Assembly: GCF_010119195.1 (NCBI RefSeq)
Contig: NZ_WRXL01000001.1
Location: forward strand, 248,001 to 312,000
DNA length: 64,000 nucleotides
Reading direction: 5' to 3'
DNA from: Haloarcula salina
GTDB taxonomy: Archaea > Halobacteriota > Halobacteria > Halobacteriales > Haloarculaceae
The notes beneath the pieces were generated by a model. The model was not told the DNA's origin, ran no database searches, and was given only the letters and a program-made list of their open reading frames with translations. Made by a program: the position numbers and the translations under genes. Of this stretch, positions 52,912-55,866 are shown piece by piece. Every line of letters starts with the position of its first letter. Positions within the stretch are counted from its first letter, which is position 1.

Positions 52912-53293
52912 CGGCGGCACCCATGCCTCGCGTGCAGACCAGGCCCCGAACGCTTCGATTCGACAGTTCGCGTGCACACGCCCTGAGCCCGCACTGCGAT
53001 GTTTCGTCGAAGTCGCGTTGCCACCCGATCTGCGACTCCGCGCCGTCCAGTCTCGTTCGTCGTTTGTAGTTCAGCCATCGATACCCAATCCTGCATGTCC
53101 ATTGCGTCGCAGCCCACTAAACAATATTGATAGTTTCAACGATCGGTTCCGCTCAATCAAGCGCCGTCGGACACCAATTCTCCGAACGAATATTCTCAGA
53201 AATGTTAACGGCAGTTCGAGAGTTAGTTTTGTGGTAGTTGACTATTATTTTCAGAGTTAATATAATCTATAATATGTAGGTACTATTCAAATA
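52912..53293. other. Gene-poor AT-rich interval
   Basis: These 382 bases hold no gene I can support. Two overlapping short frames (a plus-strand frame from 52787 and a minus-strand frame from 53117) lack any conserved pattern. From about 53120 on, the DNA becomes strongly AT-rich with scattered TATA-like elements, in contrast to the GC-rich neighbourhood, and leads to the promoter of the microprotein gene. This is the composition expected of an acquired or regulatory segment. Confidence 0.6.
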
Positions 53294-53304
53294 TTTTTAA
53301 TTTA
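53294..53304 (+). promoter_or_regulatory. TATA box of the microprotein gene
   Basis: TTTTTAATTTA lies 27-37 bases before the ATG at 53331, the distance of a leaderless haloarchaeal transcript. Another AT-rich run (TATAATCTATAATATG) lies at about 53261-53276. Confidence 0.6.
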
Positions 53305-53330
53305 CATCCCATCGACAGTCAAATCGTATC

Positions 53331-53462
53331 ATGTCCGATACCACCATGCGCGAATACCTCGCAGAGCACCCGAAAATGGCCGGCGCACTGTTCACCCTCC
53401 TGATGCTGCTGACGCAGGCGGGGAACGCGGCGGCGAACAACAACGCGTACTTCGGCCCGTAG
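53331..53462 (+). CDS. 43-residue hydrophobic microprotein
   Basis: A 43-residue protein from the ATG at 53331 to a TAG at 53460-53462. A charged N-terminus (DTTMREYLAEHPK) precedes a hydrophobic helix (MAGALFTLLMLLTQ), then AGNAAA and a tail NNNAYFGP. It therefore looks like a signal peptide with a possible signal-peptidase site (AxA) and a very short mature peptide, or a single-pass membrane peptide. It resembles a haloarchaeal family I recall as DUF7503 (a ~45-residue protein ending in GP). It is convergent with the CHAT protease gene, ending 66 bases before it. Role is unknown. Confidence 0.75.
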   Translation: MSDTTMREYLAEHPKMAGALFTLLMLLTQAGNAAANNNAYFGP

Positions 53463-53528
53463 AAAAGATTTCGAGAGAATTTCGTAACGCTATTCTGCCG
53501 TACTCCCACGAAAGACGTTCGTAACAGA

Positions 53529-55631
53529 TTAAAAGACGGTACGTAGATCGACCGACGTACTCCAGTGCAGGTCGCCGTCAATTCTAACAGGCACCTCCTG
53601 AAGTTTGAGGAACTCTGAGATTTCATCATGAGTTGCACGGAACGTTCCAAGCCGGCCAGACGTTAAGAAATGAGACTCGCAGCTCTCAATAAAGGGCATA
53701 ATAATCGTTCCTAAACCTTTGACATCTGTCGGATAGGTGTACATAGTAACTGAAAAGCCATCTTCTGCCTCGCTGATTTCGAGGAGGTTCGGCGTCCCGC
53801 TCTGTACCTGTGTCACCGTGATCCCGCCGTCGCCGACGACGATGTACTGGCCGCCGAGGATGCTCTCGTCGCGGGCGATGGTCAGCGCCGCCCGGAGCGG
53901 GAACCCGCAGTTCATCAGGCGCGCGACTGTCTCGCCGATTCGGACCGCGCCGTCGTTGAGGACCTCGTTGAGGGTGACGATGCCACCGATCGCCCCGTTT
54001 TCGACGAGCGCGAGGCCCTGGTTGTATGAGTTACAGGCGTTCAGGAGGAACGTGTCGACGCCGACCGAGTCCAGTTCCGTCGCGTCGAGCTTGCCGTCGG
54101 TGCAGGTGAAGCCCTCGTAGTCGGTGTGGCCGATGTAGTGGAAGAACTCCGTGTCCGACGTGAGGACGCGTTCGAGTTCCGCCCGCGTCAGGTCCTGTTC
54201 GACGGTCACGTCGAAGGGCAGGTCCTCCCGGGACCCGTACACCTCGTCGACGAGGTGTCGCTCTGCCTCCATCCGGGTGTCGTTCTGGACCACGGTGATG
54301 GAGATGTCGCCGGCGTTGCGCTCGCGGTCCAGGCGGTGCTGGAACGCCTCGACCGTGAGCTTGCTCGCGCCGATGGGGATGCTGTCGCCGATCCAGGCCT
54401 GTTCGAGCGTGTCCGTGGACTGGGGCTGGACGTAGTCGTCCCTGGGCGGGACGGTGTCGGCGGTGGCCGCGCGGGTGACGGTACCGGCACCGGCCGAGCG
54501 GGTGATCACGTCGTTGCGGGTGAACTCCGCTTGTGCTTCGGCCGGGATGCTCGCCTCGTTCATCGTCGGCTGCTCGTGAGTTCGGACCAGCGCGAGGTCG
54601 TCGACGACGTAGGGCAACTGCTCGGCGTTAGCAGCCACGGGGTCGACGTGCGCCGTCAGCCGCCACTCGGGGATGTGCTCTTCGAGGACGTCGTAGGGGA
54701 CGTCGAGGTACGCGGCGACCTGCTCGCTGAGCGACGCCTCGTACAGCGCCGCGAAGTCGAGGTCGACGTACGGTTCGATCGCGTGGCGCTCGTGGAGCGA
54801 GATCTGGTGGAACCCCTCCGTGCGAGTCACGCAGTCGAGGAAGAACAGCCGTTTGAGCGTCCGGCCGACCTCGGTCTCGAAGCCCCGCGCGGTGTCGAGC
54901 GAGTACGAAAAGCCGGTGTCGGTGACGAGGCGGGGCTCCGACGCGGGGACGAGCGACGCGCCGAGGTAGTACGACAGCGGGGCGGCGACGAACACCGACG
55001 CGAGGTCGGGCGGGAGTTCCAGGCGCACCCCGGTGTCGGGCACGTCGAGCTGCGACGGGATGTCGAGGCGGTCGCCGAGCTCGATTGCCGGCGGGTGGCC
55101 GCGGAGCGTCGGATACGAGCGCTCCGGGTCGTGGGCCTTCAGCGCGGACCCGAAGGTCTCGACGGCGGCCATCATATCGACCGGATCGTCGGTGGTCGTC
55201 ACGGTCGCCGCCGGTCGGTCGTGCTGTGAGCGCGCGCCGAGCAACACCTCGGTCGGCGACTCGAACTCGATTCGGGTCTCGTTCAGGTCGACGGACACTT
55301 CGAAGGCGGCGTCGAGGTGGACGTAGGTCTTGATCTGTGTACAGGGATCGAGGATGTAGGCGTCCTCCTCGAAGGACTCGGACTCGAACTGCTGGACCTC
55401 GCCGACCATCGACCCGTCGGCGTCGCGGACGTACACCATGACGACCGTCGGGAGCACGAGCTCCGTCGTCCGGATCGAGACGGCGTCGCTGACGGGGAAC
55501 AGAAACGGATCGGTCGAGGCCGGTTCGCAGTCGAGTGGACCGGGCGTGTAGAGGCGGTAGCGCTGGCGCTCGATCTCGTCGATGACCTGAATCCCGTCCT
55601 GGTCGTCGAGCGGTTCGAAAGTGAGGGTCAT
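53529..55631 (-). CDS. CHAT-domain caspase-like protease
   Basis: A 700-residue protein from the ATG at 55629-55631 (upstream frame is poorly coding). The N-terminal 430 residues are beta-rich and lack a named domain, starting LTFEPLDDQDGIQVIDEIER. The CHAT domain (about 440-610) shows VTVVQ-type strands, FFHYIGHTDYEGFTCTDGKL with the catalytic His502, VDTFLLNACNSYNQGLALVE with the nucleophile Cys533, and GGIVTLNEVLNDGAVRIGET. Thus the His/Cys dyad of caspase/separase-like peptidases is intact. CHAT proteases cut partner proteins in cell death and defence systems. The only neighbour that could be a substrate is the convergent microprotein. The gene is alone on its strand. Confidence 0.82.
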   Translation of the reverse strand: MTLTFEPLDDQDGIQVIDEIERQRYRLYTPGPLDCEPASTDPFLFPVSDAVSIRTTELVLPTVVMVYVRDADGSMVGEVQQFESESFEEDAYILDPCTQIKTYVHLDAAFEVSVDLNETRIEFESPTEVLLGARSQHDRPAATVTTTDDPVDMMAAVETFGSALKAHDPERSYPTLRGHPPAIELGDRLDIPSQLDVPDTGVRLELPPDLASVFVAAPLSYYLGASLVPASEPRLVTDTGFSYSLDTARGFETEVGRTLKRLFFLDCVTRTEGFHQISLHERHAIEPYVDLDFAALYEASLSEQVAAYLDVPYDVLEEHIPEWRLTAHVDPVAANAEQLPYVVDDLALVRTHEQPTMNEASIPAEAQAEFTRNDVITRSAGAGTVTRAATADTVPPRDDYVQPQSTDTLEQAWIGDSIPIGASKLTVEAFQHRLDRERNAGDISITVVQNDTRMEAERHLVDEVYGSREDLPFDVTVEQDLTRAELERVLTSDTEFFHYIGHTDYEGFTCTDGKLDATELDSVGVDTFLLNACNSYNQGLALVENGAIGGIVTLNEVLNDGAVRIGETVARLMNCGFPLRAALTIARDESILGGQYIVVGDGGITVTQVQSGTPNLLEISEAEDGFSVTMYTYPTDVKGLGTIIMPFIESCESHFLTSGRLGTFRATHDEISEFLKLQEVPVRIDGDLHWSTSVDLRTVF

Positions 55632-55866
55632 AGGGCGAAGGTGGAGGGAACCGTGGTAGTCTCGTCTCGACCGAACGGTCGATAGCGGCAAAAAGATATC
55701 GCCGACACCCTGCATTCTCAGTGACGTGTCATCGAGAGAACGGTCGGTCAGCGGGCCGTCCCGTCACGTGTCGGAGGACCTCCGGCCGACATGACCGTCT
55801 TCGGACGAGGTGGCGGGTCGCGGGGGAGCGAAGCGAGTAAGGGGGTCCCGCCCCAACGGGTGGATA

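Follow-up and report, generated by a model that had tools for sequence, protein, structure and literature searches.

Organization of the locus

The window, i.e., the whole analysed stretch of 64,000 nucleotides from Haloarcula salina (contig NZ_WRXL01000001.1, positions 248,001 to 312,000), carries two convergent genes with the following features, given in coordinates of the window:

53270..53330, + strand: AT-rich stretch ahead of the small gene, promoter-like (upstream composition common to the family)
53331..53462, + strand: partner gene, encoding a DUF7503 microprotein of 43 amino acids (PF24335 match; convergent with CHAT relatives across haloarchaea)
53331..53435, + strand: leader with variable N-terminus, H13-P-K-M, hydrophobic stretch and predicted cleavage site A33-A34-A35 (column statistics for 135 members)
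53436..53459, + strand: predicted C-terminal peptide NNNAYFGP with its Gly-Pro end (count of Gly-Pro ends in the family; pN = 0; repeat unit elsewhere)
53529..55631, − strand: CHAT-like cysteine protease, 700 amino acids (motifs and predicted fold; PF12770 below threshold)
55197..55631, − strand: N-terminal β-rich region, residues 1–145 (AlphaFold2 secondary structure)
54567..55184, − strand: α/β region, residues 150–355, probably a pseudo-protease half and a candidate site of peptide binding (separase and gingipain alignments; partner-linked residues)
53832..54404, − strand: predicted catalytic CHAT domain, residues 410–600 (AlphaFold2 model, fold match, motifs HYIGH and LNACNS)
54126..54128, − strand: codon of His502, 98% conserved
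54033..54035, − strand: codon of Cys533, 98% conserved

The stop codons of the two open reading frames are 66 nt apart, which confirms both the coordinates and the distance given in the preliminary description of this DNA. The length of 700 residues is counted from the ATG chosen there, and an upstream ATG at 55715 is a possible alternative start. The AT-rich surroundings of the small gene, also pointed out earlier, proved to be a family trait: mean GC content over the last 100 nt upstream of 114 DUF7503 genes was 33%, with a minimum about 30–40 nt before the ATG, and TAAGATAAATTTATT-like elements are frequent in these regions. The upstream region common to the family is thus AT-rich and TATA-like.

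The small protein: a conserved leader and a Gly-Pro tail

The 43-residue protein matched the Pfam family PF24335 (DUF7503) over positions 1–42 of 42 with an E-value of 1.8e-21 (score 75.9 bits, cut-off 27); Pfam assigns no function to this family. The Pfam match, the purifying selection described below and the TATA-like upstream region of the family identify the small open reading frame as a genuine gene. In the gene tables of NZ_CP100001.1 (L228, 4588-4991) and NZ_CP085340.1 (L230), which are incomplete, no gene is annotated at the DUF7503 site, and the family may therefore be under-annotated.

Alignment of 135 members on the invariant Pro revealed the motif H/N-P-R/K-M followed by a hydrophobic stretch, within which a Leu and a Phe are kept in 134 of 135 sequences. 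At the end of this part, position −3 is Ala or Val in 127/135 members, position −2 is free, and position −1 is Ala or Gly in all 135. Such a (−3, −1) pattern is the signal-peptidase rule, and the hydrophobic part fits a signal-peptide-like leader with a predicted signal-peptidase-like site. Behind the predicted site follow 7–9 variable residues, including a Gly-Pro end that forms the C-terminus in 121 of 136 distinct peptides. For both Gly and Pro, each of the four possible codons is in use; since every synonymous codon occurs and repeats of the unit lie far from the stop codon in some genes (see below), a cause at the nucleotide level, such as a terminator or an overlap of stop codons, was ruled out.

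Within the genus of the window, the terminal Gly-Pro showed pN = 0 at a pS of 0.66, i.e., at saturated synonymous change. The dN/dS ratio was about 0.10 for the leader and about 0.14 for the variable tail, so the residues preceding Gly-Pro evolve faster than the leader; in other clades the ratio for the tail rose to about 0.4. No positive selection on the peptide was found in the clades where dN/dS could be computed (0.14–0.42). As judged from these codon comparisons, the tightest constraint within the tail lies on the terminal Gly-Pro. The synonymous divergence itself differed in this genus between leader codons (pS 0.23) and tail codons (pS 0.66), for which codon bias or an RNA-level constraint on the leader is a possible explanation. 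The 15 peptides of 136 that have no terminal Gly-Pro end in TIR, TIS, TIG, TID, TVT, SGI or LGT, and most of them still adjoin an intact CHAT gene. Loss of Gly-Pro was also considered as a companion of the loss of CHAT catalytic residues, and no such link appeared among the relatives compared.

The CHAT-like protease

The 700-residue protein contains the CHAT motifs HYIGH and LNACNS. Its His502/Cys533 dyad had been numbered correctly from the window alone and is nearly invariant: each of the two residues is conserved in about 98% of the relatives, and the six positions H498/H502/C510/N531/C533/S535 are all retained in 186 of the 197 distinct ones. The Pfam profile PF12770 (CHAT) gave 13.7 bits (E = 0.044), below its cut-off of 24, and the designation "CHAT-like" thus refers to fold and motifs only.

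The AlphaFold2 model, built from 89 sequences (pLDDT 91.9, pTM 0.92), comprises a β part (residues 1–145), an α/β part (150–355), a disordered linker (about 378–389), the catalytic domain (about 410–600) and a C-terminal β/α part. Accordingly, the 430-residue β-rich N-terminus proposed earlier holds up to residue 145 or so, and residues 150–350 are modelled as α/β. Among solved structures the best fold matches were separase (5fby; 1.9e-8), SAVED-CHAT (8tl0; 9e-7), gingipain (4ief; 2e-6) and the TPR-CHAT protease of Craspase (7y84; 6e-5), all of which resemble the model in the fold of the catalytic half and in the His/Cys dyad. The protein is therefore predicted to be a CHAT-like clan CD protease with a caspase-like fold. 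The alignments with separase and gingipain extend over 410–500 columns and suggest a pseudo-protease half, that is, an architecture of one inactive and one active caspase-like half as in those enzymes; with TM-scores as low as 0.2–0.4, this is a lead only. Unlike these proteins, the haloarchaeal protease is accompanied by a tiny protein consisting of leader and peptide; Pfam revealed no TPR in it, the model being a mixture of β and α/β parts, nor was a SAVED domain found, and residues 1–145 belong to no named family. The two viral fold matches below 1e-3 were discarded: the alignment extends over no more than about 180 columns in one case and is poor in the other.

Pairing of the two genes across haloarchaea

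Among 293 haloarchaeal genomes of the order, DUF7503 was detected above the cut-off in 249 and CHAT relatives in 268. A CHAT relative was present in each of the 249 DUF7503-positive genomes vs 19 of the 44 DUF7503-negative ones (Fisher p ~1e-24, kinship being ignored), and 25 genomes had neither a CHAT relative nor DUF7503 above the cut-off. Of the loci anchored on DUF7503, 30/30 and 58/60 (88/90 altogether) were convergent with a CHAT gene, mostly with a gap below 100 nt; among the loci anchored on CHAT, a convergent DUF7503 gene was found in 31/32 and 33/40, the genomes of the two locus sets overlapping partly. The best 150 DUF7503 places and the best 150 CHAT places yielded at least 66 convergent neighbour pairs with gaps of 7–133 nt, and most of the other places in these sets were sampled and read as sequence. 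The pairing is also followed within a single genome: ten of the 12 DUF7503 genes of G190 adjoin a full-length CHAT gene of their own and one adjoins a CHAT fragment, the twelfth having only a distant CHAT fragment, and the C-terminal peptides of these 12 paralogues are nearly all different.

As judged from this comparison of genomes, the pairing is not due to chance, is deeply conserved and is near-universal in haloarchaea. That the two genes act together, as proposed in the preliminary description from adjacency, is strongly supported by their nearly constant co-occurrence, their joint absence from other genomes, the one-to-one match of small genes to CHAT paralogues and the fixed convergent position. 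In this survey both co-occurrence and convergent position were kept at most of the sampled loci, and neither a predominance of CHAT homologues without the microprotein nor a general loss of the dyad was encountered.

Among the 153 loci whose flanking sequence was long enough, 45 have a gene of DUF7504 (PF24336), the Pfam number next to DUF7503, as the same-strand neighbour immediately upstream of CHAT, often overlapping it (e.g., L228, L229, L203 and, in G000, C9:338178 and C1:655342). DUF7504 shows weak similarity to PAXNEB (Elp4) and DUF7090. The CHAT gene of the window is without DUF7504, five copies of which are located elsewhere in the genome.

Exchange of the leader for peptide repeats in one genus

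In the genus g72 the CHAT gene is kept in all 12 species, with 79–91% identity to the copy of G199. Three of them (L203, L205, L206) possess a normal DUF7503 gene, with leader and a nine-residue tail ending in SGP. In the other nine the MSxxDS start is preserved, the hydrophobic segment is gone and the nonapeptide is repeated 2–14 times in units of T/N-A-D-GNxGGISGP-Y/F/M or a close variant, each consisting of the predicted nonapeptide and a spacer of four residues. The repeat proteins retain the C-terminal Gly-Pro, their genes overlap the CHAT stop codon, and CHAT is intact. The 13 units of L196 have twelve identical core residues; their nucleotide differences, 5.6 per 36 nt, are without exception synonymous. 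The well-supported inner branches of the g72 tree, which alone were used as its outgroups are distant and badly chosen, require at least two changes between the leader and the repeat form. Since the leader was lost and the nonapeptide multiplied with synonymous differences only, this comparison of genes shows the peptide to be selected in its own right and the membrane segment to be dispensable in g72, which argues against a membrane-killing effector; the functional part is in all likelihood the peptide and not the segment.

Precisely such an effector had been envisaged earlier: the protease would cleave DUF7503, and the freed hydrophobic peptide would damage the membrane. CHAT proteases are known to activate membrane-killing effectors, e.g., bacterial gasdermins, by cleavage, and the haloarchaeal pair resembles these systems in that a CHAT or caspase-like protease has a dedicated membrane-tied neighbour; the obligatory pairing and the almost invariant Leu and Phe of the segment agree with this idea as well. 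However, the partner of 43 residues is no gasdermin or pore-former, its segment looks like a leader ending in a signal-peptidase-like site, nine species of g72 have the pair without this segment, and it is the tail, most constrained at its Gly-Pro end, that was multiplied there. Moreover, almost the whole order possesses the pair, which had no match among the anti-phage defence systems of PADLOC-DB and gave no virus or phage relatives in a viral-contig scan or a phage tblastn search. Considering these facts, we regard membrane killing by the microprotein as distinctly improbable.

Variants of the pair and protease genes with no intact partner

Beside distant CHAT paralogues, diverged leader proteins were found whose tails are longer but retain the final Gly-Pro (L167, L172, L175, L188, L190, L195); in L183 (DGPREP), L194 (SGPTNP) and L227 the dipeptide precedes the C-terminus by a few residues. 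In L224 a Gly-Pro protein is encoded divergently upstream of CHAT, and the association is hence independent of convergent overlap.

Gly-Pro located a few residues before the end, together with the fixed-spacer repeats of g72, which resemble a multi-copy propeptide, might suggest that CHAT is a maturation enzyme, trimming or releasing a secreted peptide by a cut near Gly-Pro (in the repeats) for a receptor located elsewhere, with no killing involved. Yet Gly-Pro is already C-terminal in most members, so that a cut after it would have no effect, and cleavage of the leader is predicted on the outer side of the membrane, out of reach of a protease in the cytoplasm; we consider a role in maturation very unlikely.

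In L127 (G067:C3) an inversion of a block comprising DUF7503 and a response regulator has its breakpoint at the DUF7503 tail; it removed Gly-Pro, separated the two genes and left CHAT intact, thus representing a natural mutant. At L146 and L157 the partner is missing and the CHAT dyad is intact. A second CHAT subfamily is located between glyA and tbsP (L169-L174, L222 at G000:C9:225274-227217, L223, L225, L226), one copy being present in the genome of the window; no clear Gly-Pro partner was seen at the loci of this subfamily that were examined. Antisense open reading frames ending in Gly-Pro at L182 and L178 overlap tbsP or lie close to it and, being doubtful, were excluded as evidence.

Comparison of 72 partner-bearing with 8 glyA-linked partner-less CHAT sequences indicated that S135, H137, E170, T271, E272, R282 and Y297 are kept in the former and lost in the latter, which makes residues 135–312 a candidate peptide-binding region.

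A tail bound by the protease could also restrain it. The microprotein would then be an inhibitor or antitoxin, with the Gly-Pro tail placed in or near the protease as a product-like or, as in securin, pseudosubstrate inhibitor and the leader anchoring the enzyme to the membrane. In accordance with such a function, each protease has a small partner of its own, even among paralogues of a single genome; separase, one of the closest folds, has an inhibitor of this type, and tandem repeats would increase the inhibitor dose. Nevertheless, dyad-intact CHAT genes are retained despite a broken tail (L127) or a missing partner (L146, L157 and the glyA-linked subfamily), which would be unexpected if the peptide were needed to restrain a lethal protease, and inhibition appears rather unlikely to us.

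Outside the order, CHAT relatives were recognized in four genomes of one family of the same phylum (L218-L221), beside dnaG or a UPF0146-like gene, and no Gly-Pro partner was found next to them in these four genomes; the Gly-Pro end of the UPF0146-like open reading frame in L219 is absent from its relatives and was attributed to chance. In G180 (C1), five dispersed, near-identical solo DUF7503 copies of 170–290 nt without CHAT (L273-L275, L254, L259) look as if they were mobile, in a MITE-like manner.

A proposed peptide ligand read by a protease

The reading we prefer, with a probability of about 0.5, is that DUF7503 supplies a peptide ligand and the separase/gingipain-like CHAT protease reads it. 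The small gene would encode a precursor, whose conserved hydrophobic leader directs the chain to the membrane or across it and is followed by a private peptide of 7–9 residues with the Gly-Pro end. The adjoining cytoplasmic protease would read its own peptide, probably via the N-terminal or pseudo-protease half, and its activity would be altered by the bound, clustered or concentrated peptide. From the observed pairing, constraint on the peptide, exchange of leader for repeats and conserved dyad, and from the predicted fold, we infer the binding, its direction, the release of the peptide and a downstream substrate. The persistence of CHAT genes with intact catalytic residues at loci where the partner is broken or missing inclines us towards activation rather than inhibition as the effect of the peptide, a leaning that is unproven. 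The fuller proposal, that private Gly-Pro peptides directly control a separase/caspase-like protease, with many such pairs per cell and a switch from leader to cytoplasmic repeats in one genus, is advanced tentatively.

Several observations speak against a ligand. The leader implies a location outside the cell, and the leaderless repeat form implies the cytoplasm, a weak point that only re-import, inward display or a different mode of action in g72 would solve. The peptides with no terminal Gly-Pro mostly stand beside an intact CHAT gene, the conservation of the leader goes far beyond the needs of an ordinary signal peptide, and the glyA/tbsP subfamily has no clear partner.

Phr and AimP are peptide precursors of bacteria and phages that are read by a TPR receptor of the RRNPP type. 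With about 43 residues, a leader and a short variable C-terminal peptide with the last two residues fixed, DUF7503 proteins are similar to these precursors, and both a predicted export leader with cleavage site and a variable peptide with fixed end are found in them. Unlike Phr/AimP, the haloarchaeal system is archaeal, its genes are convergent instead of tandem, tandem-repeat forms occur, and the presumed reader is a protease; the neighbour of DUF7503 is CHAT-like, and no RRNPP-type TPR receptor was found beside it.

A literature search retrieved no paper naming DUF7503 and no publication on its pairing with CHAT; this pairing and the putative peptide nature of the family are described here. 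A near-universal two-gene module of haloarchaea, recorded so far as an unnamed DUF and a "hypothetical protein" or "caspase family protein", thereby becomes testable: both peptide and protease are defined, and natural mutants exist in which the leader is lost, the tail broken or the peptide repeated in tandem. Archaeal caspase-like proteases would thus be linked with peptide ligands, and the module would, if the proposed reading is true, represent a principle of peptide signalling with no archaeal example in the literature searched.

Haloferax volcanii exhibits strong caspase-like activity, the responsible protein of which was, according to the authors, still to be identified (PMC3615174); a CHAT relative is a candidate source of this orphan activity. 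Profile-search controls detected both DUF7503 and DUF7504 in H. volcanii, which makes genetic analysis possible in this model organism.
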